DNA of 64,000 nt, from the NCBI RefSeq assembly GCF_031081985.1, contig NZ_JARWSK010000007.1:1-64000 (forward strand). Reading direction: 5' to 3'. The DNA comes from Komagataeibacter xylinus (GTDB taxonomy: Bacteria > Pseudomonadota > Alphaproteobacteria > Acetobacterales > Acetobacteraceae). Position 1 is the stretch's first letter; the number at the start of each line of letters is the position of its first letter. The notes under the pieces are model-generated. The model saw nothing but the letters and a program-made list of their open reading frames with translations, was not told where the DNA came from and searched no databases. The position numbers and the translations under genes were made by a program. This document shows, in pieces, positions 3,178 through 47,078 of the stretch.

Positions 3178-3240
3178 TTTCTGGGTGCCGCCTTTTTTCA
3201 AAAAGGCGGCCTTCTTTGAAGCTTTTTGAAAAAAGCTTCA
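3178..3240 (+). repeat. nested-palindrome intergenic element, copy A
   Basis: Left end GTTTCTGGGTG, then hairpin 1 (GCCGCCTTTTTT / AAAAAGGCGGC, 3187-3210) and hairpin 2 (GAAGCTTTTT / AAAAAGCTTC, 3218-3239). The right inverted end present in full copies is missing here. It lies 25 bases after the stop of the CNNM gene, between convergent genes, and probably acts as a bidirectional terminator. Confidence 0.85.
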
Positions 3241-3312
3241 TGATTGCTGCGTGTTTCCCGGGCTGACTTTTCAAACATTCTCCGAGAGGGCACCCTGAAA
3301 CTCTTATCCTGA

Positions 3313-3348
3313 AGCAATTCCACTGAACCCTGACGCAGTGCAATTGCT
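3313..3348. repeat. imperfect palindrome, unrelated to the nested element
   Basis: AGCAATTCCACTG (3313-3325) pairs with CAGTGCAATTGCT (3336-3348) with one mismatch around a 10-base loop. It resembles palindromes containing AGAGCAATT that are scattered between genes of many alphaproteobacteria. I cannot tell whether other copies exist outside the window; I see no second copy in it. Confidence 0.6.
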
Positions 3349-3375
3349 CTAACTCATTGTTTATCGGGCATCGTT

Positions 3376-3403
3376 ACCAGTTCGAATGTATCCATTCAAA
3401 CTG
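3376..3403 (-). terminator. hairpin 3' of slt
   Basis: CCAGTTCGAATG and CATTCAAACTGG pair with one mismatch around a TATC loop, 8 bases after the slt stop on the minus strand. There is no T run, so termination is uncertain; it could also protect the mRNA 3' end. Confidence 0.4.
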
Positions 3404-3411
3404 GATCTGGC

Positions 3412-9309: not shown

Positions 9310-9391
9310 TAAAAGTTTCTGGGTGCCGCCTTTTTTCAAAAAGGCGGCGTCTTTAGAAGCTTTTTGGAAAAAAGCTTCACCAAAAATTTTT
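9310..9391 (+). repeat. nested-palindrome intergenic element, copy B (full length)
   Basis: The outer ends AAAAGTTTCTGGGTG and CACCAAAAATTTTT are near-complementary and enclose hairpin 1 (GCCGCCTTTTTT / AAAAAGGCGGC) and hairpin 2 (GAAGCTTTTT / AAAAAGCTTC). It begins 21 bases after the ispE stop and ends next to the stop of the convergent SDR-like gene. Confidence 0.9.
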
Positions 9392-15632: not shown

Positions 15633-15714
15633 AAAAGTTGTTGGATGCCGCCTTTTTGCAAAAAGGCGGCGTTCTTTTTGAAGCTTTTTGAAAAAAGCCT
15701 CACCAAAAACTTTT
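15633..15714 (+). repeat. nested-palindrome intergenic element, copy C (full length)
   Basis: The ends AAAAGTTGTTGG and CACCAAAAACTTTT enclose GCCGCCTTTTTG / AAAAAGGCGGC and GAAGCTTTTT / AAAAAGCCTC. It lies between the convergent rhodanese and DUF2272 genes, 20 and 17 bases from their stop codons. Confidence 0.9.
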
Positions 15715-29409: not shown

Positions 29410-29755
29410 TGCTGTTTTTCCGTTATGTGCCAAGGACAGGACAAGCTCCGGTAAGTCGGATTATTAACCGAACGACACATTACCTAATTTTCATACATGT
29501 CAGAATTGAGGCATAAAAGACATACTGATCCGAAAAGCTCGTTTTTTCGTTCACATTTAATTTATCATATGAAACTCAGGAATAGGACCACGTTCCTCTG
29601 GAACCTTTCCGAAAAGTAATCTGGGCGCTTTATCGACCCGCAGGAATTAAAAAATTATCTAAATTTTGTCGTCTGGCCAAAAAAACGGGCAGTGCATCCT
29701 GATCCTCCGGGGCTGTTTGGAAAACCAGCCCGGAAAATATCTTAGGAATCATAAG
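29410..29755. other. AT-rich intergenic stretch
   Basis: About 345 bases of low-GC sequence with no convincing gene. It holds the promoter region of the small leftward gene, a short hairpin (GGGCTG / CAGCCC near 29710-29733) and then repeat copy D. Base composition contrasts with the GC-rich neighbours. Confidence 0.6.
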
Positions 29756-29814
29756 GAAGTTTTAGGTGAAGCTTTTTTCAAAAAGCGGGCACCCGGAAAC
29801 TTTTATCATTTTTA
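29756..29814 (-). repeat. nested-palindrome intergenic element, copy D (truncated, inverted)
   Basis: Reads GAAGTTTTAGGTGAAGCTTT onward and ends with CCCGGAAACTTTT. It keeps the hairpin 2 side and both outer ends but lacks hairpin 1. It lies 26 bases from the stop of the leftward phosphotransferase gene. Confidence 0.7.
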
Positions 29815-29839
29815 TCAATGCGTTGTTTCAAACTGTGTC

Positions 29840-30823
29840 TCAGCCGATATGGCGCAGGAGTCGCCCGTCCTTCCATGCCTGGCACAGGGCGAATGTGCGC
29901 CCGGTCCAGTCCCGGCCAAGGCTGCGTACCTGTTGGGTCTGGGCGTGGGTGCCGGTCCACGCCAGAAGCTGGATGCGGCGCTGGATGACGAGGGCTGGCA
30001 GAATATCGAGGTCAGCCTGCGTCAGCGCGCCCGTGGTGCCATAACCACTCAGCCAGTGGTCAACCCAGCGCGGGGCCTGCGGATGGTCTTCGTAAAAACT
30101 CAGCGCTGCCGCCAGGTCCTGCATGAACCAACTGATGCCGCAGTCATCAAAATCAATCAGGCGGGTATGCGTGCCGCTGATCAGCAGGTTGGCCAGCCGC
30201 AGGTCGGCATGGATCAGCCCGAATCGTGCAGGCCCGGTGCCATACTCCGCCAGTTGCGCCGCAACCGTGCGCAGGCAGCCTGCAATCAGGTCGCGCCCGG
30301 CATCGGTCATGCCCGGCGCGTCGGGCCACCGGCCCCACAGGGCATCGGGGCCGGTCATGGTGGCAGGGGTCCAGACCTTGCGGGTGAAGCCGGGCGGGCG
30401 CTGCCACTGTCGGCTATGGGCATGCAGGCGGGCCGTTACGCCCCCCAGCCGGGCGAAGGCGGCGGGATCGACATCGGTGGTGGGTTCGGTGCCCTCCATC
30501 CAGTCAAACAGCACGGCATGGCGGGATATGCCATCAGCACCACAAAGGGTGCGGATGCGCCCGCCATCACGGCCGGGCCGGGGCCGGGGTACGTCCAGCC
30601 CGGTTGCATGCAGGGCATCGAGCCAGGCCAGTTCGCTGCCAATCTCGGCGGCGGTATGATAGCCGGGCCGGTGCAGGCGCAGCACATGGCGCGGGCCGGA
30701 TGGGGTGTCGATGCGAAAGACGACGTTTTCTGAAATGGAAAGCAGGCTGGGCTGCGCATCACGCAGCGGGTACTCGGCCAGCGCTGCGTGGGCCAGCCGG
30801 TAAAGGGGGGCGGGATCGGTCAT
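29840..30823 (-). CDS. aminoglycoside phosphotransferase/ThrB-like kinase
   Basis: A 327-aa member of the APH/choline kinase/SrkA fold family. Kinase signatures are HADLRLANLLI (catalytic loop, HxDxxxxN) and LIDFDDCG (metal-binding Asp). The N-terminal ENVVFRIDTPSGPRHVLRLHRPGYHT segment carries the nucleotide-binding strand. The substrate is unknown: family members phosphorylate homoserine, choline, methylthioribose or protein Ser/Thr. It lies 45 bp downstream of the OprB porin gene on the same strand, so readthrough is possible. Confidence 0.82.
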   Translation of the reverse strand: MTDPAPLYRLAHAALAEYPLRDAQPSLLSISENVVFRIDTPSGPRHVLRLHRPGYHTAAEIGSELAWLDALHATGLDVPRPRPGRDGGRIRTLCGADGISRHAVLFDWMEGTEPTTDVDPAAFARLGGVTARLHAHSRQWQRPPGFTRKVWTPATMTGPDALWGRWPDAPGMTDAGRDLIAGCLRTVAAQLAEYGTGPARFGLIHADLRLANLLISGTHTRLIDFDDCGISWFMQDLAAALSFYEDHPQAPRWVDHWLSGYGTTGALTQADLDILPALVIQRRIQLLAWTGTHAQTQQVRSLGRDWTGRTFALCQAWKDGRLLRHIG

Positions 30824-32497: not shown

Positions 32498-32611
32498 AGA
32501 TTTTTGTGTTTGTTCTCACATATTACTCATTTGCCCTGCCCGGGCCAATGATAGCGTACTCCGCCCGGCCGCCCGTTGACGCAACCCCGTTGGAATGCTG
32601 AACATGGCCCC

Positions 32612-33163: not shown

Positions 33164-33252
33164 GGCGAAGTAAAAGGATAACGGTTTGTAAGCGTCGCCT
33201 CCGTGCACGAAGGCGGCATCAATCACGGTGAAGCAGGTCAGGGAGAACAGGC

Positions 33253-33834: not shown

Positions 33835-33842
33835 AAGCGGAT

Positions 33843-33923
33843 AGAAGTTTTTGGGCGCCGCCTTTTTTTTAAAGGCGGCGTTATTTTCAAAGCTTTTGAA
33901 AAAAGCTTCACCAAAAACTTTTC
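33843..33923 (+). repeat. nested-palindrome intergenic element, copy E (full length)
   Basis: The ends AGAAGTTTTTGGGCG and CACCAAAAACTTTT enclose GCCGCCTTTTT / AAAGGCGGC and AAAGCTTTTGA / AAAAAGCTT. It starts 8 bases after the DJ-1-family stop and ends 7 bases before the folE stop, filling the gap between two convergent genes. Confidence 0.9.
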
Positions 33924-33930
33924 ACTGTAT

Positions 33931-34536: not shown

Positions 34537-34594
34537 GCTGTGGGTTCTTGTTGCAGGGGACTGCCCGGCAGGGACAGGCCACGGAAGGAAAAAC

Positions 34595-35071: not shown

Positions 35072-35090
35072 GGTGGCGACGCTCCTGCGT

Positions 35091-36293
35091 TTACCGGTTG
35101 GCCAGCGCCGCGAGGCCGCGCTTGAGGTCATCGATCAGGTCATCGGCATCTTCCAGCCCGACCGAGAAGCGGATCGCGCCATCGGTAATGCCAAGGCGGG
35201 CACGCTCTTCAGGGGCCAGCTTCATGTGGGTGGTCGTGGCCGGATGCGTGACCAGCGAGCGGGCATCGCCAAGGTTGTTCGAGATCGAGATCAGCCGCAG
35301 CGCGTTCATGAAGGCAAACGCCCCCGCCTTGCCGCCCTCGACCTCGAACGCCACCAGCGTGGAACCCGCCGCCATCTGCTTCTTGGCCAGTTCGTATTGC
35401 GGGTGGTCCTTGCGGCCGGGGTAGAACACGCGGGCAATGCCGGGGGCTTCGGCTAGGAAGTCGGCCACTTTGGCCGCGTTCTGGGTCATGGCGTTCACGC
35501 GCAGGGCCAGGGTCTCGATGCTCTTGAGCATGACCCACGCATTGAACGGCGAGAGGCTGTTGCCGGTATTGCGCTGGAAGGGACGCAGCACCTCGTTGAT
35601 CCATTTTTCCGTGCCCAGCACGGCGCCGCCGAGCACGCGGCCCTGCCCGTCAATGTGCTTGGTGCATGAATACACCACCACGTCGGCCCCGAGTTCGAGC
35701 GGCTTCTGGTACAGCGGGGTGGCGAATACGTTATCGACCACCACCGTCGCCCCCACCTTGTGGGCAAGGTCGCAGATCATGCGGATATCGAGCACGTCGA
35801 GCATGGGGTTCGAGGGGCTTTCGAGCAGGACCGCGCGGGTGGGCTTGCTGAGTGCTTCCTTCCACGCCGCCATGTCGCCGCCATCGACGAATACCGTTTC
35901 CACGCCGTAGCGCGGCAGCAGTTCGGAGACGATCCAGTGGCACGAGCCGAACAGCGCGCGCGAGGCCACCACGCGGTCGCCCGCGCGCACCTGTGCCAGC
36001 AGCGCGGAGGAGACGGCCCCCATGCCGGTGGAGGTCAGGGCACAGGCCTCGGCACCCTCAAGGTCGCACAGGCGGCGCTCGAGATTGGCTACGGTGGGGT
36101 TGCCGAAGCGGGTGTACTGGTAGTGCGAGACATCGCCGGTAAAGGTGCCTTCGGCCTGCTCGGCGCTGTCATAGACAAAGCCGGAGGTCAGGAACATCGC
36201 CTCGCTGGTCTCGCCATAGGGCGTGCGCTCGAGGCCCGCATTGATCAGGCGCGTTGCGGGGCGGAAGGATTTGGGGTCGGGCTGGTCAGTCAT
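35091..36293 (-). CDS. metZ: O-succinylhomoserine sulfhydrylase
   Basis: A 400-aa Cys/Met-metabolism PLP enzyme (gamma family) making homocysteine from O-succinylhomoserine and sulfide. The PLP lysine is Lys212 in VVYSCTKHIDGQGRVLGG; YQYTRFGNPTVANLE and the C-terminal RFSVGLEDADDLIDDL are typical. The ATG at 36293 has AGGA 13 bases upstream and gives the family N-terminus. The frame stays open to an ATG at 36395, so a longer product cannot be excluded. A SAM-II riboswitch lies at 36428-36484, and metZ is a classical target of that class. Expression should fall when S-adenosylmethionine is abundant. Confidence 0.93.
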   Translation of the reverse strand: MTDQPDPKSFRPATRLINAGLERTPYGETSEAMFLTSGFVYDSAEQAEGTFTGDVSHYQYTRFGNPTVANLERRLCDLEGAEACALTSTGMGAVSSALLAQVRAGDRVVASRALFGSCHWIVSELLPRYGVETVFVDGGDMAAWKEALSKPTRAVLLESPSNPMLDVLDIRMICDLAHKVGATVVVDNVFATPLYQKPLELGADVVVYSCTKHIDGQGRVLGGAVLGTEKWINEVLRPFQRNTGNSLSPFNAWVMLKSIETLALRVNAMTQNAAKVADFLAEAPGIARVFYPGRKDHPQYELAKKQMAAGSTLVAFEVEGGKAGAFAFMNALRLISISNNLGDARSLVTHPATTTHMKLAPEERARLGITDGAIRFSVGLEDADDLIDDLKRGLAALANR

Positions 36294-36333
36294 GGTGGGT
36301 GGCAGTTCCTGCAAACAGGGTGGTGTGAAGGCA

Positions 36334-36365
36334 GGCCAGTTGCCGGTTGATGCCCGGCACTGGCC
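36334..36365 (-). promoter_or_regulatory. hairpin between SAM-II riboswitch and metZ
   Basis: GGCCAGTTGCCGG (36334-36346) pairs with CCGGCACTGGCC (36354-36365) with one bulged base. It is stable, with no T run, so it is not an obvious intrinsic terminator. Confidence 0.45.
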
Positions 36366-36427
36366 CGAAAGGCGGTGCACGACCGTGGAAACCATGATGC
36401 CCGCGCCCTGTCACCGGCGGGATCAGG

Positions 36428-36484
36428 CCTCTTTAGCGCGTATGTTTTACCTCGCCGCAAGCCGGCCGTATCAAATCACGAGGG
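36428..36484 (-). promoter_or_regulatory. SAM-II riboswitch upstream of metZ
   Basis: Read on the minus strand it contains, in order, the P1 arm CCTCG, the loop TGATTTGA, the core TTGC, the closing P1 arm CGAGG, TAAAA, and GCTAAAGAGG. This order and these sequences match the SAM-II (metA motif) class, an H-type pseudoknot that binds S-adenosylmethionine and represses methionine genes. It is 135 bases upstream of the chosen metZ start, longer than usual. Confidence 0.9.
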
Positions 36485-36571
36485 CCCGGACGCAACCTTG
36501 CCCGGACATGCATGCTTATTGCGGATCAGGGCCGGGTGCGTCAACTGCTGGCCTGACCTGTAAAGGGGTGA

Positions 36572-36600
36572 TTGCATCTGCCATGCTTGTGCAGTATAGA
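36572..36600 (+). promoter_or_regulatory. promoter of tRNA-Gly
   Basis: TTGCAT (36572-36577) and TATAGA (36595-36600) are separated by 17 bp, and the tRNA begins 11 bases after the -10 box. Position and spacing both fit a sigma-70 stable-RNA promoter. Confidence 0.75.
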
Positions 36601-36610
36601 GGGCGGGCCT

Positions 36611-36684
36611 GCGGGTGTAGTTCAATGGTAGAACGGCAGCTTCCCAAGCTGCATACGAGGGTTCGATTCCCTTCACCCGCTCCA
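36611..36684 (+). tRNA. tRNA-Gly(CCC)
   Basis: A complete 74-nt tRNA with encoded CCA. The 7-bp acceptor stem is GCGGGTG / CACCCGC. The D arm has stem GTTC / GAAC. The anticodon stem GCAGC / GCTGC encloses loop TTCCCAA, giving anticodon CCC. The T loop is TTCGATT. It decodes GGG glycine codons. A matching promoter lies just upstream, and a low-GC stretch follows it. Confidence 0.97.
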
Positions 36685-36699
36685 GCTTTCCCCCAAATC

Positions 36700-36971
36700 G
36701 TTATCCTGACTGTGGCCATCATGCTCTGGCTGTGCGCATGTCATTTTCAGGAATGATGACCGGACTGTAATAGCTGTTTTCAATAACGGGGCGGGAACTG
36801 TTCCAGACAATCATGAAAAATGTTATTGTCATCAGGGTATGTTTTAGGGAAATATTGGCATCTTGATGCAATAATATTTCACAATTGATGTATTTACATC
36901 ATTGAAATAAATTATCATATCAATAACAAGTAAAATAATAATGCCATTATTTGGTAATTGTTTGGAAAAGT
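36700..36971. other. AT-rich non-coding stretch downstream of tRNA-Gly
   Basis: About 270 bases with markedly lower GC than the neighbours and no credible gene. It contains a perfect short palindrome, TGATGTA-TT-TACATCA (36886-36901), and ends at repeat copy F. It could be leftover sequence from an integration next to the tRNA, but I see no integrase or repeated tRNA 3' end. Confidence 0.5.
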
Positions 36972-37050
36972 AAAAGTTTTTGGGTGCCGCCTTTTTTCAA
37001 AAAGGCGGCGTCTTTCAAAGCTTTTTGAAAAAAGCTTTACCAAAAACTTT
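36972..37050 (+). repeat. nested-palindrome intergenic element, copy F (full length)
   Basis: The best-preserved copy: outer ends AAAAGTTTTTGGGTG and ACCAAAAACTTTT, with hairpin 1 (GCCGCCTTTTTT / AAAAAGGCGGC) and hairpin 2 (AAAGCTTTTTG / AAAAAAGCTTT). It ends 15 bases before the stop of the leftward exported-protein gene. Confidence 0.92.
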
Positions 37051-37065
37051 TGTCTTTACTGCCTT

Positions 37066-37554
37066 TTATCGGGGCGGGGCAGGTTCGGCAGTAGCCTGCG
37101 TGTCGGTATAGGTCGTGCCGTTCCAGATCCACCGATCCGTGCCATCGACCAGCAGGTCATGCATGCCCTCATGCAGCTCGGGCGTGATAGTGATCGGACC
37201 GCTGATGGAATCAAGGATCTGTATCCATTTACGCCCGTCCGGCAGGTAAACGGAGGTGGAACACCCCGCCGAGCCGCACAGGCTGGCCGATTGCAACTGC
37301 ACGAACAGCGCCGTGCGCGGCGGATCATCCGACAGGCGGCCCGAGCCGGTCAACAGCACCGGGCGTTCATTCTGCATGGCGGCATCATGCAGGTCGGGCG
37401 CGACCAGCAGCCGGGCCTGCCGGTCGAGTTCGGTGCCCGGATGCTGCGCCAGGATGACCGGCCCGCCTTCCGCCCATGCCGCATTCATGCCCGCCAGCCC
37501 CATGAGCGCGACAGGAAGCACGAAGGCACGCAGCAGGGAACGGATACACGGCAT
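37066..37554 (-). CDS. orphan exported protein with CGSAGC motif
   Basis: A 162-aa protein with a signal peptide (SLLRAFVLPVALMGLAG, cleavage near AAWA). The mature part of about 130 residues contains LCGSAGCSTSVYLPDG, a two-cysteine motif seen in several small secreted bacterial proteins of unknown function, followed by a beta-rich tail (ITITPELHEGMHDLLVDG). The ATG at 37554 has GGGAG 10 bases upstream. It stands alone, with repeat copies on both sides (F downstream, G and H upstream). Function unknown. Confidence 0.7.
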   Translation of the reverse strand: MPCIRSLLRAFVLPVALMGLAGMNAAWAEGGPVILAQHPGTELDRQARLLVAPDLHDAAMQNERPVLLTGSGRLSDDPPRTALFVQLQSASLCGSAGCSTSVYLPDGRKWIQILDSISGPITITPELHEGMHDLLVDGTDRWIWNGTTYTDTQATAEPAPPR

Positions 37555-37640
37555 GAAGGGCATACTCCCGCAATGACAAAACCATAGCGAACCCAATGCG
37601 TGGCACCCTTCAAGGTTCCGTGCCGTCTTCCTGCCCATGG

Positions 37641-37710
37641 CAAAAGCCGCGTTTTTCAAGCGGTCAGCATTTCCTGAAGTTTTTGGAAAAAGCTTCACCA
37701 AAAACGTTTT
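37641..37710 (+). repeat. nested-palindrome intergenic element, copy G (degenerate)
   Basis: Hairpin 1 is eroded to AAAAGCCGCGTTTTTCAAGCGG, hairpin 2 to GAAGTTTTTGGAAAAAGCTTC, and the right end CACCAAAAACGTTTT remains. It lies upstream of the exported-protein gene, not at a gene end. Confidence 0.65.
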
Positions 37711-37824
37711 GATATTACTGATGAGCTGAGAAAGTTACCGCTAACGGCCATCGTTAATACTACGGATCTGATCGCCAGAATGGACGCCCGAAAACGATCC
37801 ATGGTGAACCGGATTAAAACAGCT

Positions 37825-37902
37825 CAAAGTTTCTGGGTGCCGCCTTTTTTCAAAAAGGCGGCGTTCCTGAAAGCCTGCTGCAAACAGGCTTTACCCTAAA
37901 CA
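37825..37902 (+). repeat. nested-palindrome intergenic element, copy H (variant hairpin 2)
   Basis: Hairpin 1 is canonical (GCCGCCTTTTTT / AAAAAGGCGGC). Hairpin 2 is replaced by AAAGCCTG / CAGGCTTT around CTGCAAA, so both arms changed together. The right end is ACCCTAAACAGG. It lies 4 bases from the stop of the PqiC-like lipoprotein gene. Confidence 0.85.
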
Positions 37903-37906
37903 GGCC

Positions 37907-38581
37907 TCAGTTGCGTCCATGATGGCCAGTGCTGGTGGCAGGTTGCGCTGCCGTCGTGGGCCAGCTTGCCTCGATGCGGTCGCTGAGCTGGTTCAGCAGA
38001 CCCTCGGTCACCTTGGCAATGTTGTCATTGCTGCCAGTCGCCCCGCTGCCCAGAATGATGGTACGGTTGCGCTGGATGGGCTGGCGCGAATCCTGCGGAA
38101 TGATGGCCCAGTCCGCATTCAGCGCGGAGGAACCATCGCGGCTCACATCAAGGCGGCTGATATTGAGCTGCAGCCGCCAGGTGGGGCGGTCGGGCTGGGG
38201 CTGGTCGGTCACGAACAGGTTCGGCCATTTCTGTGCAAGCCGCGCCGTGATCAGGTCGGTTGCCCCCACGGAAAGGCGGCTGGCCCAGCGGCCGAGCCCG
38301 CTACGCTCGATCTCATGGCCATTGCGCACCATGATGTCCTGGCTGTCCAGGTAATCAGGCAGGCGGGTCCGCTCGACCTCGATGACCGGCGTGCTCTCGG
38401 TAATGGGGGTGGTGGAGGTGGTTTCCGCGCCGGTGGCGATGGCGGGCGCGCCCAGCGTGTAAAAGCGCACGGGGGCCGAGGAACAGGCCGACAGCACCAT
38501 GGCTGACAGCAGCAGGCCACCACCCGCCCGCAGGGCCGGATGCAGGCGCGAAAGGGAAAGGGCGGGCTGGCGCGTTTTCAT
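37907..38581 (-). CDS. PqiC-like ABC transport auxiliary lipoprotein
   Basis: A 224-aa outer-membrane lipoprotein with a lipobox at LSAC (Cys33) and a domain of the ABC-type transport auxiliary family (DUF330/PqiC): FYTLGAP near the N-terminus, then VIEVERTRLPDYLDSQDIMVR. Such proteins close the periplasmic end of MCE lipid transport systems. The start overlaps the MCE gene stop by 4 bases (ATGA). It is the last gene of a permease-ATPase-MCE-lipoprotein operon. Confidence 0.87.
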   Translation of the reverse strand: MKTRQPALSLSRLHPALRAGGGLLLSAMVLSACSSAPVRFYTLGAPAIATGAETTSTTPITESTPVIEVERTRLPDYLDSQDIMVRNGHEIERSGLGRWASRLSVGATDLITARLAQKWPNLFVTDQPQPDRPTWRLQLNISRLDVSRDGSSALNADWAIIPQDSRQPIQRNRTIILGSGATGSNDNIAKVTEGLLNQLSDRIEASWPTTAAQPATSTGHHGRN

Positions 38582-39531
38582 TGATTGCGTCCCATCAGCA
38601 GAAGTTGCGGATTACTTTCGACTTCATTGGCGAATCCGCGCAGCCCGTAGCCGGCTTCCATTACGTCACGCATCGTATCATTCAGGTTGAGCATGTCACG
38701 GGACTGCGGGTCGAGCAGGGCGCGCAGGCCAGCAAGGGTTTCACGCGATTGCGCCATGGTTTGCCTTGTGTTGGCAATGAGTGCGAGCAGTTCGGCACGG
38801 CGCCCCTCGAACTGGCGGGTATTGGTGGCAATCAACCGGTCCAGCTTGTTTATGGTCACGCTGGCCCGGTTTTGCGCGTCAATGACGGTGGCGCGGATCT
38901 GGCGCACCGCCATCTCGCTTCGCGCCGATGTGTCATGAATGCTGGTCATCATGCCCGGCACGGTGGCGTTCACGTCGGCCACAAGCTTATGCACGCTGGC
39001 CAGCGCGGTGGCGAGGTCATGGCGCAGCCCCGCCATGGAGGTGGAAATCATCATCGCCTCAAGCTGCTGCAGCGCGGTCTGGCCCATCGGTATTTCGGGC
39101 AGGTCGGTCAGGTTGGGGTGCAGGCGCACGGGCGTTTCAGGGTCGAGGTCAAGGTCGAGTTCGGTCTGGCCGGTGACCAGGCTGTGCAGCGTCATGTCGG
39201 CGCGCAGCCCGTTGGCCACGAGTTGCGGCAGCGGCGGCAGGTCGCCCCTCCCTGGCGCATGGGCCGGGTCGAACAGGATATAGACCGGCATGTAGGTGTG
39301 GTGATCGACCGGGTCCACCTTGACCGTGATCCGCTCGACCGCACCCACCGGCACCCCGCGGAAATTGACCGGCGAGCCGATATCCAGCCCGTTCGTGGGG
39401 CTTTCAAACACCACCACGGCCTCGCTGCTGCGACCGGGCAGGGGCAGGTCGCCTTTGACCGCCAGCACGACAAGCCCCAGGGCCGCCACCCCGAGCACGA
39501 CCGCGCCAATCAGTGTCTGCCTGCCGGGCAT
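38578..39531 (-). CDS. MCE (MlaD-type) lipid-binding protein
   Basis: A 317-aa inner-membrane-anchored protein with one N-terminal helix (about 7-25) and an MCE domain (about 38-115: FESPTNGLDIGSPVNFRGVPVGAVERI). A long helical C-terminal region (about 150-310) follows. MCE proteins form hexameric rings that carry phospholipids across the periplasm. The extended C-terminal helix suggests a needle-like form rather than the short E. coli MlaD. It is 5 bp downstream of the ATPase gene. Confidence 0.9.
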   Translation of the reverse strand: MPGRQTLIGAVVLGVAALGLVVLAVKGDLPLPGRSSEAVVVFESPTNGLDIGSPVNFRGVPVGAVERITVKVDPVDHHTYMPVYILFDPAHAPGRGDLPPLPQLVANGLRADMTLHSLVTGQTELDLDLDPETPVRLHPNLTDLPEIPMGQTALQQLEAMMISTSMAGLRHDLATALASVHKLVADVNATVPGMMTSIHDTSARSEMAVRQIRATVIDAQNRASVTINKLDRLIATNTRQFEGRRAELLALIANTRQTMAQSRETLAGLRALLDPQSRDMLNLNDTMRDVMEAGYGLRGFANEVESNPQLLLMGRNQ

Positions 39532-39536
39532 CCGCC

Positions 39537-40340
39537 TTACCCGTTTCCATGGGAGCTGGAACTGTCCAGCTGCTCACGGTGCATGAAGGCATGCACCGTG
39601 GGGTCGGTGCAGTGATCGCGCAGCCAGGTGGGCGAACCGTGGGCGATGGCGGTTTTCTGCTCGGCATCAAGAAAGATGCCATCATCGGCGATATGGAACA
39701 GGCTGGAAAGCTCGTGGCTGACGATGATGATCGTAGCTCCCAGTCCGTCGCGCAGGTTCAGGATCAGTTCATCCAGCCTGGCCGAGGTAATGGGGTCAAG
39801 ACCGGCAGAAGGCTCATCGAAGAACAGGATGTCAGGGTCGAGCGACATGGCGCGCGCCAGTCCCGCGCGTTTGCGCATGCCGCCGCTGAGCTCGGATGGA
39901 TACTGGTCAATGGCGTGCAGCATGCCCACGAGCCCGAGCTTGAGTTCCACAAGCTGGCGGATGACATGCGGTTCAAGCTTGGTGAACATCTGCATGGGCA
40001 GGGCCACGTTCTCGCCCACGGTCATCGAGCTCCACAGCGCCCCGCTCTGGAACAGCACGCCAAAGCGCCGCCCGATCCGCACGCGGCTGTCATCATCGCC
40101 AGCCCAGTAATTGTCCTTCTGCACCATGTAGGTGCCGTGGGTGGGGCGCAGCAGGCCGATCATGCTCTTGAGCAGCGTGCTCTTGCCGCAGCCCGAGCCG
40201 CCCATCACGGCAAAGATGCTGCCGCGCCGCACCTGGAACGAAACATCATGCTGGATCACGCGCGGGCCGAAGGCCAGCGTCACGTCATTCACGTCGATCA
40301 TGACGGGGCGGTCATCGGTGGAGGGCATCTGGTTATTCAT
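39537..40340 (-). CDS. MlaF-type ABC transporter ATPase
   Basis: A 267-aa ATP-binding subunit of the lipid transporter. Walker A is GGSGCGKSTLL, the signature is LSGGMRKRAGLARA, and Walker B is LFFDEPSAGLDP. The DEPSAGLDPITSARLDELI stretch and the MRKRAGLARA variant are typical of the Mla/Ttg2A subfamily. It is the partner of the permease gene 5 bp upstream. Confidence 0.93.
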   Translation of the reverse strand: MNNQMPSTDDRPVMIDVNDVTLAFGPRVIQHDVSFQVRRGSIFAVMGGSGCGKSTLLKSMIGLLRPTHGTYMVQKDNYWAGDDDSRVRIGRRFGVLFQSGALWSSMTVGENVALPMQMFTKLEPHVIRQLVELKLGLVGMLHAIDQYPSELSGGMRKRAGLARAMSLDPDILFFDEPSAGLDPITSARLDELILNLRDGLGATIIIVSHELSSLFHIADDGIFLDAEQKTAIAHGSPTWLRDHCTDPTVHAFMHREQLDSSSSHGNG

Positions 40341-40345
40341 GGCGA

Positions 40346-41563
40346 TCAGATCCCGATAACATTGGCAATAACCGCAAACACCGCATCGAGCGCGATCACG
40401 CCCACAATGCCCACCACCACGGCCTTGGTGGCCGCGATGCCCACATCGGCCGCACTTCGCCCGGCCTTGAGGCCGATGCGGCAGCTTGTCAGCCCGATGA
40501 AGGTGCCGAACACGAAGCTCTTGATGAAACCGAAGGTGAACTGGTCGAGTGGCAGCGCCTGCAGGGTTTCATGAAAATAACCCAGCGGCGAGACATCGAG
40601 CATGATGTAGGAGACGAAGAACCCGCCGAGCATGCCGATCAGGCAGCCATAGAGGTAAAGCAGCGGCATGGTGAAGGCGAGCGCCAGCACCGAGGGCAGG
40701 ATCAGGTAGCTTGAAACCGGAATGCCGAATACCTGCAGCGCGTCGATTTCCTCATTGGCCTGCATGGTAGAGATGCGCGCGGCATAGGCGCCACCGGTGC
40801 GGCCGGCCATGATGATGGCCGTCATCACCGCCGACATCTCTCGCACCATGGCAATGGCCACAAGGCTCGCCACATAGATGTCGGCTGCGAATTTATGCAG
40901 CTCCACCGACCCCACAAAGGCTAGGATCGCGCCGACAAGGAAGTTGACCACGCCCACGATCAGCAGCGCCGCAGGCCCCGCCGCACTCAGGTCGGACATG
41001 AGGTCCACGGTGCGCATCATGCCTCGACCCACCAGGGCGGCAAACCCGCCCTTGGCGGCGGCCGCCCCCATTTCGCTCACGCAGCCGACCTCGTTGAGCG
41101 TATCGAGCGTGAGCTGGCCCACGGCGGTAACAGGCTGGAATTTATGCGGTGGTGGTGGCGCGGGCGTGGGCGGAATTTCCGGCAGCAGGTCGAGCAGCTT
41201 GCGCGCGGATTCGGGCAGGGTATCGATGCGTAGCTGCACGTTGTCTTCACGTGCGGTGCGCTTGAGCTCCCACAGGAAGCTGATCAGCGAGGTATCCCAT
41301 TTGCCAAGCTGGTCGGTGCTGAATTCAACCGGTTCGCCGTGCGGCACATCCCTGAACCCGGATTCAGGAAAGTCCGGGAGATGGCCCTGCTGTGCAATCC
41401 AGTCCCCGGACAATGTAACAAGGGTCCGGTTCGCCTCGGGCTGCAGATGCCATTGCGGCGCACCATTGACGGACGTTTTCACCAGCCTCTCCAACCTCAG
41501 TGCCGCAACCTCGCCCACCCGGTTGCGGGGCGGCATGCACAAAACGATCCCCGTTCTCGTCAT
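40346..41563 (-). CDS. MlaE-type permease with N-terminal STAS-like domain
   Basis: A 405-aa inner-membrane permease. The C-terminal 240 residues form the MlaE domain: AIAMVREMSAVMTAIIMAGR, ARISTMQANEEIDAL and the final KSFVFGTFIGLTSCRIGLKA. The N-terminal 125 residues resemble a STAS domain (LVTLSGDWIA, then FSTDQLGKWDTSLISFL), a fused counterpart of MlaB. Start candidates are ATG 41563 and ATG 41536; neither has an ideal ribosome binding site. It heads the four-gene MCE operon. A separate MlaC shuttle is not encoded here. Confidence 0.88.
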   Translation of the reverse strand: MTRTGIVLCMPPRNRVGEVAALRLERLVKTSVNGAPQWHLQPEANRTLVTLSGDWIAQQGHLPDFPESGFRDVPHGEPVEFSTDQLGKWDTSLISFLWELKRTAREDNVQLRIDTLPESARKLLDLLPEIPPTPAPPPPHKFQPVTAVGQLTLDTLNEVGCVSEMGAAAAKGGFAALVGRGMMRTVDLMSDLSAAGPAALLIVGVVNFLVGAILAFVGSVELHKFAADIYVASLVAIAMVREMSAVMTAIIMAGRTGGAYAARISTMQANEEIDALQVFGIPVSSYLILPSVLALAFTMPLLYLYGCLIGMLGGFFVSYIMLDVSPLGYFHETLQALPLDQFTFGFIKSFVFGTFIGLTSCRIGLKAGRSAADVGIAATKAVVVGIVGVIALDAVFAVIANVIGI

Positions 41564-41696
41564 CCGCCTGTTGTGAGCAGGCAGGTGGCGGGTCTCTCAC
41601 GGTGTTCTGTTTTCCATACCAGATGACCCGCCCGGCACAAGCCCCGCTGCCGTGAAGGCTCCGCGATGGGAGCGCATGGCTTTGGCCCGCCCGCGC

Positions 41697-42755
41697 TCAG
41701 GGCGGCGCGTGGGCGGGAGAGATTTCCACCGCCGGGTCGTCCACATGGCCGGTCGTGATGGCGGTGGTGATGATGGCCATGATGCGCCTGGCCACGGGCT
41801 GGCGGTAATGGAGCGGATCCCAGAAATTATCCCGGTTTCCGGTCAGGGCGGTGTCCTGGTTGAAGTCGAGCACGAGCGTGTCGTGGCGGGGCGCTGTAAT
41901 CTGGCGCACGCCCAGGCGGCAGGCCGCAAGCCGCGCATCGGCCACGCTGCCCGGCGTGCCGTGCAGGAAGGTGGAGGCAGGCGGAAACCACACGACGCGC
42001 CGCGTGGTGGCAGGCATGCGAGCCAGCATGCCGGCCAGCAGGTCCATGCCCGCAGGCGGGGTGTCGGCCATGCCGGGCGGGGCGGGGGTGTTGTCCGCCG
42101 GTGCCCAGCGGCTGAAGATGGCCTGCACGCGGGCGGGGTCGTACTGGCTGTCAGGCGGCACGAAGCTGGTATAGCCATCACTGCCAAAGCGCTGGGCCTT
42201 GCGGCCTGCCAGCCACAGGAATTCATTGGCCGCCTCCTGCAGGGCATACAGGCTGGCCATGTGCAGGTAACCCGTCCATGCGGGGTGGCCGTACATCCAT
42301 TCCGGCCAGGGGCGGTTGGGGCCGCTCAGGCTGCCGGGGCGGGGGTGGCACCAGGCGGCATCGATGCCGATCAGGACAATGCGCGGGGCCGGGTGCGCGT
42401 GCAGGAAAGCGTCGAGTTCGCGCGACTGCTCCCACGGGCTGGCGCTGTTCATGGCCATGTTGAGAAAATGCGCGCCCAGCGGCGGCCCCAGCACGGCAGG
42501 CTGCATGAGGCGGCTGGTCGAGGTGCCGATGATGACGGAGTCAAACTGCGGCGCGCGCGCCAGCGCGGGCATGGTGTAGCGCGCGTTGGAGGTAACGGGT
42601 ATGCGCGCAAGAGGCGGCGAGAAGGGCAGGATGTTCCACGGGTCAACGGTTACGATGAACAGGTAGAGCCCGCCGCCCGTCACCGCCATCGCCAGCCCGG
42701 CCAGCAGGGCAAAGCGCCGCCACGGCCCTGCCTGCCCACACCCGGCCTGCGTCAT
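41697..42755 (-). CDS. SGNH-hydrolase-like membrane-anchored protein
   Basis: A 352-aa protein with an N-terminal membrane helix (about 15-37). The rest has SGNH-like blocks: IIGTSTSR (residues 75-82, Ser block I), NMAMNSASPWEQ (Asn103 region, block II/III) and NFWDPLHYRQPVARRI (Asp313 and His316, block V). This resembles AlgX/DltD-type membrane-tethered acyl-transfer or esterase proteins, but the substrate is unknown. It overlaps the preceding dioxygenase gene by 4 bases (ATGA) and is the last of three coupled genes. Confidence 0.7.
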   Translation of the reverse strand: MTQAGCGQAGPWRRFALLAGLAMAVTGGGLYLFIVTVDPWNILPFSPPLARIPVTSNARYTMPALARAPQFDSVIIGTSTSRLMQPAVLGPPLGAHFLNMAMNSASPWEQSRELDAFLHAHPAPRIVLIGIDAAWCHPRPGSLSGPNRPWPEWMYGHPAWTGYLHMASLYALQEAANEFLWLAGRKAQRFGSDGYTSFVPPDSQYDPARVQAIFSRWAPADNTPAPPGMADTPPAGMDLLAGMLARMPATTRRVVWFPPASTFLHGTPGSVADARLAACRLGVRQITAPRHDTLVLDFNQDTALTGNRDNFWDPLHYRQPVARRIMAIITTAITTGHVDDPAVEISPAHAPP

Positions 42756-43486
42756 TGATGGCGGAATGTCACGACCAGAACATCCCGGTAGGCCGGGCGG
42801 GTGGGGTCGAGGGGGCGCACCGCCGTCACGCCATGATAGACGCGGTTGTCATTGACCACTGCCGTATCAAGCGGCTGGTCGAGCATGAAGCCGCCAAGCA
42901 GTGTGCGTTGCAGGTCATGGATGGAGGTCTCGCCCGACATGACGTTCTCGCGCCGCACCATGATCACCATCACCCAGTCCACGCCATCGCGGTGCAGGCC
43001 CTCGGGCGTGGGCTGGCCGGGGCTGTTCTCCAGCGCCTCGATGCGGAACTGGTGCACCTCGGTATGCCACACGTCGGGCTGGCTTGCCGGCTCGCTCAGG
43101 TCGGTCACGATGCGGTGCATGAGCTGCAGGATGGCCAGCAGGGCGGGGTGGTTGCCCATCTCGGGCTCGATGGCGCGGAACCAGCGCTCGATGCCGCCAT
43201 TGAGCTCGTTATAGTCGCGGCTCTGGTAGTGGGGCTGGTGCTTCTTGCGCCTTATGCCCTCGGCGCTGATGGCGAAGGTGGCATGGCGGCGGCGGCGGTA
43301 GCGACCGCCATCGGCCATGTAGCGGTCCAGCCCCAGCCGGTTCCAGCTTGCAGCAAAGCTGGCCCAGTCCGCCACGGCCTGCTGGCCCAGCAGGGCGCGC
43401 ATGGCCCCCGCGGGCACGAAGGCAAAGCCATCCGCGCGCAGGGGGGCCTCAAGATGGGCCAGTACGTCCGCTGTATCCTCAGCCAT
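42752..43486 (-). CDS. 2-oxoglutarate/Fe(II) dioxygenase (2OG-Fe_Oxy_2/BsmA-IDO-like)
   Basis: A 244-aa oxygenase that probably hydroxylates a small molecule such as an amino acid. The iron ligands are His165 and Asp167 in GLHRDGVDW and His218 in RVYHGV, with a downstream Arg for 2-oxoglutarate. The overall pattern matches the family that includes the biofilm/stress protein BsmA and isoleucine dioxygenase. The ATG at 43486 overlaps the stop of the MscS-like gene by 8 bases (ATGGCTGA), implying coupled translation. The substrate is not readable. Confidence 0.82.
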   Translation of the reverse strand: MAEDTADVLAHLEAPLRADGFAFVPAGAMRALLGQQAVADWASFAASWNRLGLDRYMADGGRYRRRRHATFAISAEGIRRKKHQPHYQSRDYNELNGGIERWFRAIEPEMGNHPALLAILQLMHRIVTDLSEPASQPDVWHTEVHQFRIEALENSPGQPTPEGLHRDGVDWVMVIMVRRENVMSGETSIHDLQRTLLGGFMLDQPLDTAVVNDNRVYHGVTAVRPLDPTRPAYRDVLVVTFRHQ

Positions 43487-46076
43487 GGGTGGAGTCACTT
43501 CCCTTTGGCGCAGGGTTGGCCTTGGGGGCGGCGTCCTTTGCGCCTTCAGCCTTGGGTGCATCAGGTGCGTCATTCCCGGCTTCAGGCTGCGCGGGCTTCT
43601 CGAGGGCGGCGCGGGGGAAGTTCTCCTCCATGTTCATGCGCAGCGTGCCAGTCGGGCCATTGGCCAGCAGGTTGAGCGAGGTGGGGGTGGGGAACTTGAC
43701 CTGCTCCTTCACCATGCGCGCGCTCAGGCGGCTGTAATACTCGCGGTAGACCTTCCACTTCGACCCCGGCGCGGTGCGGATGGAGCCAAGGAACTTGGAG
43801 CCATTGCCATCGGCCTGCTCCAGCCCGAGGAAGGAGAAATCCGACTTGATGAGCGGGCCATAGACATGGTCCTTGCGCAGGATCGCCAGTTCATCCTGCA
43901 AGATGGCGGCCACCCGGTGCGGGTCTTCCGACAGGTCGAGCATGAAGCTGACCACCACGAGGTTGTAATCGCGCGAGGTATTGGCAATCGAGGTGACCGA
44001 CGAGAACGGGATGATGTGCAGGTCGCCATTGACCGCGCGCAGCCGCAGCGTGCGGATGGACAGGTGCTCCACCGTGCCCGACACGGCGCCCGCCGTAACC
44101 CAGTCCCCCACCTGCATGGCGTTTTCAACCAGCATGAAGAAGCCGGTGATGAAGTCCTTGACCAGGCTCTGGGAACCGAACGCGATGGCCGCACCCATGA
44201 TGCCCGCACCCGTCAGCAGCGGGGCCACGTTGATGCCGATCTGCGACAGCGTGGTCACGGTCACGATGATGATGATGAAGGTGAGCAGCACCGTGCGGAT
44301 GATGGGCAGCACCGTGCGCAGCCGTGTGGCGCGGGAAGCCTGGTCCGATGTCTCGAAGCGGGTGATCTGGTTCTGCAGGGTGGCGTTGGCCACTTCCCAC
44401 ACCACGATGGCGATGGTGTAGGCGATCATGATCGTCAGCATCGCGCCCACGATCTTGGTGCCCAGCGAGCCATGCACGAAGAAGCGGATGGCCGGCAGCC
44501 CCCAGGACTGGAGCAGCAGCACGACCGTGAAGAACACCAGCAGCACCGACAGCGTGCGCCGCGCCATGGGGTAGTAGTAGTCCACGCGGGCCTGCAGGCC
44601 GGGATAGCGCTTCTCGGTCGCCTCGGGCACGTGGAAGATCTTGTTCTGCACGCTGAAGGCCAGCACCGACAGCAGCCGTGCGCCCAGAATGACCACGATG
44701 GTCAGCGACAGGGTGCGCAGGATCCAGGCATAGCCGCCCTGGATCTGGGTGGCCCAGACCAGCCACAGCGCGAAGTCGAAGAACATGGCCGGGATCCACC
44801 AGAAGCGGACCATCTTGCCCACGAACATCCAGAACGGCTTCTCGCGCAGGCGGCCCGAGGGCTGGAGTGCGGCACCCACATGGTGGCGGATGCGCCAGAT
44901 GAAGATGGCGATCAGCATATGCTCGATCAGCACCACGGCGCGGATGATGGCCTCGGTGCCACGGGCGGGCATGTGGAACACGCCGCCAAGCGTGGACAGG
45001 CAGACCACGATGGACGGTGCGGCCACCAGGAAGTTCCACCACCGCGTGACCATGAGCGCTGTCGCGTCGGATGCGCTGCACAGGCGGATGGTGGGCGAGT
45101 GCGGCACGAACACGGTCTCGAGCAGCAGGTAGATCACGCGCGCGATGACATAGGCGTTGGTGAGCGTGATGGTGACCATCGCCGCCTGGTTGGTGGTGGT
45201 GAACAGGGCGGAGGCACCATAGCCCAGCCCGAAGAACAGCGCGACCGGCAGCAGCTTGATGAGGAAATGCAGCAGCGAAAAGGGAATGCGCGTGATGATG
45301 CGCAGCGTTTCATGCTGCTGGCGGTCATCCTGCTCGCGGGTCTGCTCGGTCTGCTGCTCGGCCTGGGCATCGGCGGCGGTGGCGGGCGGGGGGGCGGGCT
45401 GGTTGGCATCCGCCGCATCCTCCCGCGCGAGGCGCTGGTTGAGGCGCTGCTCGGTGGCCACGGCGCGCGCGGTCACGCTGGCCAGCGGCTTGCGCAGCAC
45501 GATGGACAGGCCACGCTCGGCCACGAGCGCGAGGATGAAGATGATGCCCGCGCGGCCCATCGCATCAAGCAGGATCTGGCGCGAATCCGCATTGGACAGG
45601 ATGGAGTGAACCCACCTTCCCACAAAGGCCAGATCAGCAAACAGCGCCATGAAGTTCTGGCCCTGCTTGAGCGCTACATCGCGGATATGGCCCAGCTCGT
45701 TCATGGTTTCGCTGCTGATGCTGCCGGGTTCGACTTCCACGTCGGAATTGGCGGCGGCGGCCTTCTTGGCGGGGGCAGGGGCGGGTGCCGCGGCAGGGGT
45801 GGTCGGCGCGGGCAGGCCCTTGGCGATGGCATCAAGGGTTTTGGTGAATTCCTCGCGCTTCTGCGGGTCGTTCATCACCGAGAGCACCTGCTGGGCCTGC
45901 TGGGCGGTGATGGTCTGCCCCGTGGCCTGGGCGGCGGCGGTGCCGGGATCGGCAGCATGGGCGTGGGGAATGCAGGGCAGGAGGGCGAGCAGGAAAGCCG
46001 CCAGCACTGTCAGGATGCCGCCCCGTCGGGACTGTCTGGATACGGGATGGGCGTGCGTCGTGAAATGGGCGGACAT
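43479..46076 (-). CDS. large MscS-family mechanosensitive channel
   Basis: An 865-aa channel with a signal peptide (residues about 20-42), a periplasmic Ala/Pro-rich region and many membrane helices (about 170-610). The MscS pore and beta domain starts near 614: GINVAPLLTGAGIMGAAIAF, then GSQSLVKDFITGFFMLVEN and GDWV. It is larger than MscS and resembles the YbiO/MscM-like class. It would release solutes on osmotic downshift. The C-terminus has a Pro/Ala/Lys tail. It leads a three-gene coupled set with a dioxygenase and an SGNH-like protein. Confidence 0.9.
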   Translation of the reverse strand: MSAHFTTHAHPVSRQSRRGGILTVLAAFLLALLPCIPHAHAADPGTAAAQATGQTITAQQAQQVLSVMNDPQKREEFTKTLDAIAKGLPAPTTPAAAPAPAPAKKAAAANSDVEVEPGSISSETMNELGHIRDVALKQGQNFMALFADLAFVGRWVHSILSNADSRQILLDAMGRAGIIFILALVAERGLSIVLRKPLASVTARAVATEQRLNQRLAREDAADANQPAPPPATAADAQAEQQTEQTREQDDRQQHETLRIITRIPFSLLHFLIKLLPVALFFGLGYGASALFTTTNQAAMVTITLTNAYVIARVIYLLLETVFVPHSPTIRLCSASDATALMVTRWWNFLVAAPSIVVCLSTLGGVFHMPARGTEAIIRAVVLIEHMLIAIFIWRIRHHVGAALQPSGRLREKPFWMFVGKMVRFWWIPAMFFDFALWLVWATQIQGGYAWILRTLSLTIVVILGARLLSVLAFSVQNKIFHVPEATEKRYPGLQARVDYYYPMARRTLSVLLVFFTVVLLLQSWGLPAIRFFVHGSLGTKIVGAMLTIMIAYTIAIVVWEVANATLQNQITRFETSDQASRATRLRTVLPIIRTVLLTFIIIIVTVTTLSQIGINVAPLLTGAGIMGAAIAFGSQSLVKDFITGFFMLVENAMQVGDWVTAGAVSGTVEHLSIRTLRLRAVNGDLHIIPFSSVTSIANTSRDYNLVVVSFMLDLSEDPHRVAAILQDELAILRKDHVYGPLIKSDFSFLGLEQADGNGSKFLGSIRTAPGSKWKVYREYYSRLSARMVKEQVKFPTPTSLNLLANGPTGTLRMNMEENFPRAALEKPAQPEAGNDAPDAPKAEGAKDAAPKANPAPKGSDSTHG

Positions 46077-46270
46077 GCCGATTGTTCACCTCCTTGAAAA
46101 TATAAAACCCCGCCGCAGCGGGTTCAGGCTCCCCTGTCGAATGACACAGCACCCCCGCCCGTGCGTGGGCGCGGGGTGTGCCATCCTACCGCCTGAAAGC
46201 ATGCAATATCAGGACAAAAGATTGCCAAAGCCTGCATGGTTGCATTCTTGGCATGCCTTTTTTGCGTTTT

Positions 46271-46873
46271 TCAGCCCCACTGGGGCGGCTGCGGGGCCAG
46301 GGCGCGGGCCTCGCGCCGGATCACGCAGGTGCCTGCCAGAATGTCGTGCAGCGCCTGCTTGCGCTGTGTCCACATGACCATGAGGAAGCCAATGCCAAGC
46401 AGCAGCGCCGAGAGGTATTTGCCAAAATAACGCCCCGCGGCCCGCAGCGGCGTGATCCGGTTGCCATAAAGGTCGGTCACGCGCATCTGGCAGGCCAGCT
46501 TGCCCGGCGTCGCCTGGAAGCGCGAGGATTCAAACATGATGAAATAGAGCGCTGGCAGCAGGATCGACGCCAGCTCGAACAGCCCGTTCCCGTTCCAGTG
46601 CAGGTGGGGCATGCTCGAGACGATGGTGTAGTCGGCCTGCGTGTAGCCTGCGGGTTCGATGTAGGAGATGCGGTAGTCACCACCGCTGCCGCCCGTCGAT
46701 TGCGGATCGAATATCGATACTGAAAGGCTCGGCGGCACCAGCAGCAGGCCCATGAGCCCCAGCACCGCCCACAGGATGATGCCATCGATTACATGGGCGA
46801 CCACGCGCATCCAGAACCCGGCATAGGTCCAGATCTCGGTGGGGGAGGCAGGGCGGGAAAACGGGTTCGTCAT
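46271..46873 (-). CDS. RDD-domain membrane protein
   Basis: A 200-aa protein with a three- to four-helix RDD domain: WMRVVAHVIDGIILWAVLG carries the Arg and Asp of the name, followed by ATPGKLACQMRVTDLYG and DILAGTCVIRR. RDD proteins are small inner-membrane proteins, possibly ion transporters. The ATG at 46873 (MTNPFSR) has AGGA 9 bases upstream; a start at 46966 would add unlikely residues. It lies upstream of the MscS-like gene across 194 bp that I see as non-coding apart from GC-rich hairpins. Confidence 0.8.
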   Translation of the reverse strand: MTNPFSRPASPTEIWTYAGFWMRVVAHVIDGIILWAVLGLMGLLLVPPSLSVSIFDPQSTGGSGGDYRISYIEPAGYTQADYTIVSSMPHLHWNGNGLFELASILLPALYFIMFESSRFQATPGKLACQMRVTDLYGNRITPLRAAGRYFGKYLSALLLGIGFLMVMWTQRKQALHDILAGTCVIRREARALAPQPPQWG

Positions 46874-46995
46874 GCAGGGCATTCCTGTCTTGCTGCCAAG
46901 GAGTTCACCCGTACAGCAATGCCACTGCCCGGTGCGAAGCGGAAGCGGGAAAAAAGCGCCGTCCATCAGGCAGGGCGACTGTATAAAAACAGAAG

Positions 46996-47078
46996 AAAGT
47001 TTTTGGTGAGGCTTTTTTTCAAAAAGCGTCGAAAGGAACGCGGCCTTTTTGAAAAAAGGCCGCGCCCGGAAACTTTTG
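46996..47078 (-). repeat. nested-palindrome intergenic element, copy I (inverted, variant hairpin 1)
   Basis: On the minus strand it has the outer ends AAAAGTTTCCGGGCG and CACCAAAAACTTT. Hairpin 1 is GCGGCCTTTTTT / AAAAAGGCCGC, so the usual GCCGCC/GGCGGC stem changed on both arms. Hairpin 2 is degraded. It lies just after the argJ stop and upstream of the RDD gene. Confidence 0.85.

Follow-up and report, generated by a model that had tools for sequence, protein, structure and literature searches.

A miniature inverted-repeat transposable element of the IS5/IS1031 type, probably domesticated as a bidirectional terminator between convergent genes in Komagataeibacter

The 64,000-nucleotide stretch of the Komagataeibacter xylinus genome analysed here (positions 1 to 64,000 of contig NZ_JARWSK010000007.1, assembly GCF_031081985.1; hereafter, the window) carries a short palindromic sequence in nine copies at gene ends. 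Our comparative analysis identified this sequence as the core of a miniature inverted-repeat transposable element (MITE) with defined ends, a target duplication and an empty site. The ends and the duplications look like the marks of a transposase of the IS5 family (IS1031 type), and not like those of repetitive extragenic palindromic (REP) elements. In our interpretation, the host has probably co-opted this MITE to terminate transcription from both sides where two genes converge.

In its complete form, the MITE measures 162 bp: it is bounded on both sides by a 15-bp terminal repeat (GAGACTGTTTGAAAA) and further comprises arms of ~22 and ~30 bp and a core of ~80 bp. The exact repeat occurs 149 times in 18 of the 19 genomes of the genus (0 for the reversed control), and 21 inward-facing pairs of it span 161-165 bp, 16 of them exactly 162 bp. 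Nineteen of these pairs were fetched with 200-bp flanks, together with a twentieth (L332), while the twenty-first, at a contig edge, was left out. Identical flanking triplets were observed in 18 of the 19 intact copies (TAA in 11, TCA in 3, TTA in 3 and TAT in 1), 17 of them conforming to T-N-A; the remaining copy is flanked by TAA/CGA, and the twentieth by TTA/TTA (two of the 19, L205 and L207, represent one site in two genomes). The sequence CTGTTTGAAAA lies beside a core in 14 of its 16 occurrences in 1.29 Mb of DNA. The empty site was revealed by the orthologous gap 30823/30869, which is 209 bp long in genome G014 (K. xylinus NBRC 15237, as judged by 133 of 133 shared 60-mers), and only 39-45 bp and element-free in the 18 other genomes. 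The insertion in G014 (164 bp) begins with GAGACTGTTTGAAAA; at its other end, adjoining TTA, this repeat is present in decayed form. The terminal repeats, the 3-bp target duplications and this empty site bear out the mobile, MITE-like origin proposed in a preliminary description of the window; orthologous gaps and site occupancy also speak against the case in which all relatives would hold the same sites with no sign of mobility. On the other hand, the complementary sequences AAAAGTTTTTGG / CCAAAAACTTTT, described there as the outer ends of full copies, are 12-bp arms internal to the mobile unit; the true ends are located ~40 bp further out on each side, and the arms were thus ruled out as element ends.

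GAG ends and a 3-bp TNA duplication are the hallmarks of the IS1031 group within the IS5 family. Both are present in the MITE, which differs from the group in having no transposase gene inside. Full-length IS5-type elements of the genus display the same GAG ends, with TTA or TCA duplications (L301, L306, L309). IS1031 of Acetobacter xylinum, now Komagataeibacter, appears among the references of PMC6528568. The closest insertion sequence (IS) by its ends, GAGCCTGTTTGGAAAATC / GAGCCTGTTTGAAAAATC (L286; similar L262 and L285), is in another genome, and the MITE repeat GAGACTGTTTGAAAA agrees with one of these ends (GAGCCTGTTTGAAAA) in 14 of 15 bases and not beyond. In the source genome, no relatives of the L286-type transposase were detected at E 1e-60, and all IS5-type elements with a repeat pair found have other ends. 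A search for paired ends (≤ 3 mismatches) 600-2500 bp apart across the fetched loci returned three, L075 (two MITEs), L116 and L107. The only inward exact pair found at this distance, G014:C52:11044-12089, was rejected as an autonomous IS, being two MITEs around other genes. Such pairs of MITE copies around other DNA (L193 in G014:C52, with 1.0 kb between the outer ends, and L075 in Acetobacter musti, with 1.3 kb) might transpose as one compound element, provided that it is the outer ends that are used. As a separate observation, IS5-type transposases are matched 39 times (E ≤ 1e-60) in genome G002 of the same genus (5 contigs); many of these matches are equal in score, possibly due to a recent IS burst.

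The preliminary description had left room for a REP-like origin. We give next to no chance to a REP element moved by a REP-associated tyrosine transposase: the sequence is indeed palindromic, extragenic and present in hundreds of copies, but the transposase domain PF01797 had 0 matches in the source genome (the control was positive in 5 of 14 genomes), and a 162-bp unit with IS-type ends, 15-bp terminal repeats and T-N-A duplications speaks against this origin.

All nine sites reported earlier hold related sequence, at coordinates correct to within a few bases (Table 1). The architecture of two hairpins within complementary outer arms was verified for six full copies, each comprising a GGCGGC-type hairpin, a GAAGC-type hairpin and the 12-bp closing arms; the copies at 3173, 29755 and 37641 are incomplete. 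A covariance model (R1) built from the six full copies was searched against the window and the 19 genomes of the genus, with matches in each; in the window it recovered eight of the nine copies at E ≤ 0.002 (3173, 9311, 15633, 29755, 33843, 36972, 37825 and 46995), the six full ones by construction. The three-way structure suggested for the full unit agrees with the predicted RNA fold on both strands of three copies, with stability z-scores of -4.0 to -6.3 and 0 of 200 shuffles equally stable in each of the six foldings. Hairpin 1 of the 46995 core (GCGGCC/GGCCGC) is changed on both sides. Rfam reports nothing at the copies, its only hits in the window being a tRNA and a SAM_alpha riboswitch.

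In most window copies the outer transposon ends are gone, and the same holds for the source genome, where the terminal repeat (≤ 3 mismatches) is retained at 6 of the 98 ends of 49 cores (0 for the reversed control) and at just 1 of the 32 ends of the 16 best cores. Among 39 distinct copies from one genome, 90.2% of pair cells are occupied by a standard pair (shuffled mean 87.4%, highest of 200 88.3%); two-sided changes affect 33 cells (shuffle mean 9.8, highest of 200 18) and 23 of the 34 pairs (mean 6.7, highest 12). The three-way fold thus persists through compensatory changes while the ends are mostly gone; the reason for this is what we infer below. The mean identity of paralogous cores in the source genome is 85% (26 cores of ≥ 60 bits), compared with 89% for orthologous cores in the same orientation (57 comparisons, ≥ 45 bits) and 83% for non-orthologous cores of different species; flanks 20-60 bp away are 57% identical. 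The flanks of 177 full-length cores are AT-rich for ~10 bp on each side. In another genus of the family (g79), no terminal repeat was found at the nine copies inspected in five genomes (best 4-7 mismatches), and eight of these nine copies occupy gene ends shared by several species, at three sites (L263, L266, L273 and L276 in four genomes; L267 and L274, and L275 and L277, in two genomes each). Compared with the window hairpin GCCGCC/GGCGGC, the g79 hairpin TCCGCC/GGCGGA has one pair changed on both sides, and GTCACC/GGCGAC has one pair with a two-sided change and one A-C mismatch. Single hybrid hairpins combining half of hairpin 1 with half of hairpin 2 were seen at 29755-29804 and in L122 (G005); they look as if they had arisen by deletions between shared TTTTT/AAAAA stretches.

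The position of the cores relative to genes was assessed in a 384-kb sample of the source genome (11% of 3.53 Mb), with genes called by a codon-usage script, a non-standard gene caller. This sample contains 49 cores at E < 1e-5 (hidden Markov model), 31 of them near full length, so that ~450 cores per genome can be estimated by scaling up, assuming that the sample is typical. Cores occupy 30 of the 48 convergent gene pairs, 14 of the 239 co-directional and 2 of the 48 divergent ones (convergent versus rest, Fisher p 5e-19). No overlap of more than 25 bp with a called gene was seen among the 49 (in four of them it amounts to 1-4 bp), and the median distance to the nearest stop is 13 bp for the 47 cores with a neighbouring stop, 37 of which are within 30 bp. 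Combined with the folding data, this places a stable predicted hairpin just downstream of the stop codon. In 15 co-directional cases the orientation of the core is mixed (9 same, 6 opposite). The preliminary description had called the unit more elaborate than an ordinary terminator; this is true of its structure, whereas its position and constraint point to terminator-like use. We infer that the core probably stops transcription arriving from both sides, and is probably kept for that. The asymmetry between G-U and A-C, taken as a clue to the working strand, was inconsistent (19/45 for the outer stem, 36/13 for hairpin 1 and 6/11 for hairpin 2). A different role at the same place, that of an mRNA 3'-end stabiliser (an exonuclease barrier similar to REPs and bacterial interspersed mosaic elements) or of another structured 3' untranslated region signal, would be compatible with the very stable fold predicted on either strand and with the position just after stop codons; we find it very unlikely, as the co-directional preference expected of operon-internal stabilisers is missing from the above distribution.

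Insertion at stop codons could bring the MITE to such positions. TAA and TGA both fit the T-N-A target, which means that a stop codon can serve as the insertion site, and the target duplication restores this codon so that the gene stays whole. We found individual cases of precisely this outcome: the G014 insertion is at the TAA codon, read as TTA on the + strand, that ends an open frame of 508 codons, L321, L324 and L329 are at the stops of open frames of 323, 434 and 312 codons (the L324 site being the same as that of L326), L313 and L320 are at the stops of shorter frames, and the copy on plasmid pKNA07 (L158) lies directly against the stop codon of a gene annotated as aldo/keto reductase. 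In the window, the long copy at 29709-29839 has the terminal repeats 29709-29723 and 29825-29839 (3 mismatches each) and adjoins the TGA stop of gene 29840-30823; no such copy was found in the 200 bp next to this gene in G007, G015, G018, G003 and G005.

The entire scheme would then operate as follows. A putative transposase acting in trans would cut at the GAG ends, insert the MITE at T-N-A and duplicate three bases; upon landing at a TAA or TGA stop, the duplication would restore the stop and leave the gene whole. The core, predicted to fold in the RNA of either strand, would most likely serve as a bidirectional terminator, either in the gap of a convergent pair or behind a single gene. Copies in useful places would be kept, their ends mostly being lost and their pairing persisting via compensatory changes. 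The bolder version of this scheme, according to which one transposon family built the default terminators of the genus by flush stop-codon insertion, shedding of the ends, retention of the cores and their flipping in place, has in our opinion somewhat less than an even chance.

Individual sites were also compared among relatives. At site 9288/9393 the core has the same orientation in 7 of 7 close genomes (source included). At site 33834/33931 it is in the + orientation in the source genome and in G007 (K. xylinus K2G30, by 83 of 97 shared 60-mers), in the - orientation in G014 and G018, weak in G003 and under the threshold (a hybrid hairpin) in G005; a full or partial copy is present in 13 of the 18 readable genomes and none in G015, where the site is empty, or in G001, G017, G002 and G012. 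The core of site 15613/15732 is inverted in G005. Site 3152/3412 has it in the + orientation in the source, in the - orientation in G018 and as a weak - match in G003 and G005; in G014 there is no core and the terminal repeat remains. Finally, at site 46873/47096 a core is found in the source, G007 and G003 and is absent in 11 more distant readable genomes; G005 has none, and G014 and G018 have a match near the place, at the edge of the fetched stretch. At three window sites (3173-3252, 15633-15714 and 33843-33922; L117-L122, L213-L218), close relatives thus hold the core in opposite orientations at the same place. Candidate routes for these flips are recombination across the closing arms, template switching or substitution of one copy for another.

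Beyond the source genome, each of the 19 genomes of the genus (source included) has at least 40 R1 matches at E ≤ 0.001, a count that is capped at 76 per genome and in which one copy can match on both strands. The pattern scan of named genomes listed at least 108 stretches, all of them from Komagataeibacter, Novacetimonas, Gluconacetobacter entanii and A. musti, the latter being the sole representative of Acetobacter in that listing. Across the family, matches at E ≤ 1e-8 were obtained in 54 of 397 genomes, spread over 16 of 102 genera; 20 places from genera g97, g79 and g55 were inspected, and the weaker matches in other genera may be chance hairpins. Genus g97 includes G. entanii, N. cocois and N. 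hansenii, as deduced from shared sequence (10-11 60-mers of short loci). Plasmids carry copies too, in 6 of 72,556 records (5 Komagataeibacter, 1 Novacetimonas), and no match to the element was found in phages. Two of the plasmids carrying the MITE, from N. hansenii (L157) and Komagataeibacter nataicola (L158), are typed as conjugative, which suggests a possible route between genera. In A. musti (G060), ACTGTTTCAGAAG has 57 matches at ≤ 1 mismatch versus 6 for the control, and three fetched paired copies are ~255-265 bp long with ends GAGRCTGTTTCARAAG; one is flanked by identical triplets (TTA), the others by TAA/TGA and TCA/TTA. This MITE (L137-L139) has the same core, related ends and other arms, with an inverted repeat near CATAAC...GTTATG.

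Table 1. Copies of the MITE core, surviving terminal repeats and adjoining features in the window
Feature	Position	Strand	Context and remarks
Core without closing arms	3173..3252	+	Convergent pair 3152+ / 3412-; covariance model E 9.4e-17
Surviving terminal repeat GAGAATGTTTGAAAA of the 3173 copy	3268..3282	-	1 mismatch
Full core	9311..9391	+	Convergent pair 9288+ / 9393-; stop codon of the - gene one base away
Full core	15633..15714	+	Convergent pair 15613+ / 15732-
Long 131-bp MITE copy with both terminal repeats	29709..29839	-	Core is one hybrid hairpin, 29755-29804
TCA = TGA stop of the APH-family gene 29840-30823 (-) (Pfam)	29840..29842	-	Abuts the right terminal repeat; T-N-A site
Full core	33843..33922	+	Convergent pair 33834+ (DJ-1/PfpI) / 33931- (GTP cyclohydrolase I); both stop codons 8 bp away
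Full core, top score	36972..37051	+	14 bp downstream of the - gene 37066-37554
Decayed copy	37641..37710	+	Covariance model E 0.065; nhmmer 27 bits
Full core, hairpin 2 changed on both sides	37825..37903	+	3 bp downstream of gene 37907-38581 (-)
Full core	46995..47077	-	Downstream of the argJ-family gene 47096-48331 (-)
tRNA (Rfam)	36611-36681		
SAM_alpha riboswitch (Rfam; alphaproteobacterial S-adenosylmethionine riboswitch)	36412-36492	-	Upstream of the Cys/Met metabolism pyridoxal phosphate-dependent enzyme gene 35091-36293

Several observations weigh against a MITE domesticated as a terminator. With respect to termination itself, scanning 28000-47990 with a simple terminator consensus marks a site within only one of the six copies there and yields 10 sites in total, fewer than in shuffles (15.8), and the U-tracts are short or located beyond the closing stem, where the T-rich flanks of the cores lie. 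With respect to transposition, the G014 insertion is flanked by non-identical triplets, TTG on the left and TTA, and no IS with an identical terminal repeat was found, the nearest (L286) falling one base short at one end. The preference for stop codons is suggestive only: in the blind set, selected by terminal repeats alone, 5 of 19 insertions are at a stop versus an expectation of 2.7, given how many T-N-A sites each gap contains, and a clearer excess (9 of 23 versus 3.3, p 0.0009) appears only after adding the non-blind L158, L115, L037 and L118. Even the convergent bias can be interpreted otherwise, as it is also expected of harmless parasites and, in the part of PMC3049150 considered here, is also reported for RUP and IS elements of pneumococcus. 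The MITE could be a tolerated parasite that survives where it is harmless, its fold being a by-product of its palindromic make-up and useless to the host. Convergent gaps do tolerate insertions, pneumococcal repeats that are not terminators are reported to show this bias as well (same source), and 9 of 19 intact copies (L313-L332, with the orthologue L326 omitted) are in called convergent gaps, so that a part of the bias was already there at landing. We nevertheless regard this explanation as unlikely: the cores have outlasted their ends (6 of 98 retained), compensatory changes are seen among copies, and core-only copies occupy orthologous gene ends in g79.

The relationship between core and ends may also be read in the opposite direction. 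Clean cores lack ends, and ends accompany poorer cores, as if the core had an independent life; moreover, in-place inversion of a core is observed even in g79, a genus in which no ends are seen (L276 versus L263, L266 and L273). The core could then represent an older family of bidirectional terminators, spread by recombination or gene conversion, one lineage of which was captured between IS1031-type ends. This would account for the best cores being devoid of terminal repeats, for the core-only copies at shared sites in g79, for the flips at three sites between close relatives as well as in g79, and for the MITEs of Komagataeibacter (162 bp) and A. musti (~255-265 bp) sharing core and ends and differing in arms. 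However, the AT-rich ~10 bp flanking the 177 full-length cores look as if inner arms had been left behind, the 46995 site looks like a gain in the close clade, and no mechanism dispersing cores without ends is known here. Overall, an older core captured by a transposon appears improbable to us, and the domesticated MITE of the IS5/IS1031 type is the reading that we prefer.

The nearest known system in terms of its working is SPRITE of Streptococcus pneumoniae, described in PMC3049150, of which a part was considered: a short intergenic repeat resembling a Rho-independent terminator, found near gene 3' ends, over-represented between convergent genes and suggested by its authors to be co-opted as a terminator. 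This is a precedent for a MITE-like repeat in such a role; it differs in having an 18-bp stem with AAAA/TTTT ends, no demonstrable target duplication and 30 copies in the context table, unlike the acetic-acid-bacterial element with its three-way core, 15-bp terminal repeats, T-N-A duplication, empty site and an estimated ~450 cores. Citing SPRITE, a review of MITEs calls terminators derived from MITEs conceivable (PMC10969869, from an excerpt). Paired DNA-uptake sequences of Neisseria and Pasteurellaceae are likewise, by the available portion of PMC1852404, hundreds of near-identical hairpins enriched tail-to-tail, one repeat family serving as a general terminator; their unit, however, is a 9-11 nt uptake signal in inverted pairs and not a transposon. 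RUP, Correia/NEMIS, ERIC and MITEAba12 are bacterial MITEs as well. MITEAba12, thought to be mobilised in trans by ISAba12, differs by its 9-bp duplications and has no predicted terminator (PMC6382973, in the part available), and stop-codon insertion with restoration was not found described in the accessible portions of the literature on such repeats. A literature search at the level of titles and abstract beginnings, outside subscription papers, returned no description of the element in acetic acid bacteria, and a term search of two Komagataeibacter genome papers (PMC13028821, PMC6528568) found no mention of MITEs. We therefore consider it a new MITE family, the novelty of which is its apparent domestication into a bidirectional terminator at the majority of the convergent pairs sampled.

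Since mobile, eroded and, in another genus, core-only forms are visible side by side, this system makes it possible to test whether a transposon has been domesticated into a termination signal used throughout the genome. Landing at a stop codon with its restoration, if true, would be a neat route to harmlessness for a mobile element, and most convergent gene pairs (30 of 48 sampled) would be insulated by descendants of one MITE family. As the genus includes the main bacterial cellulose producers, the cores may also be considered as possible parts for genetic engineering.

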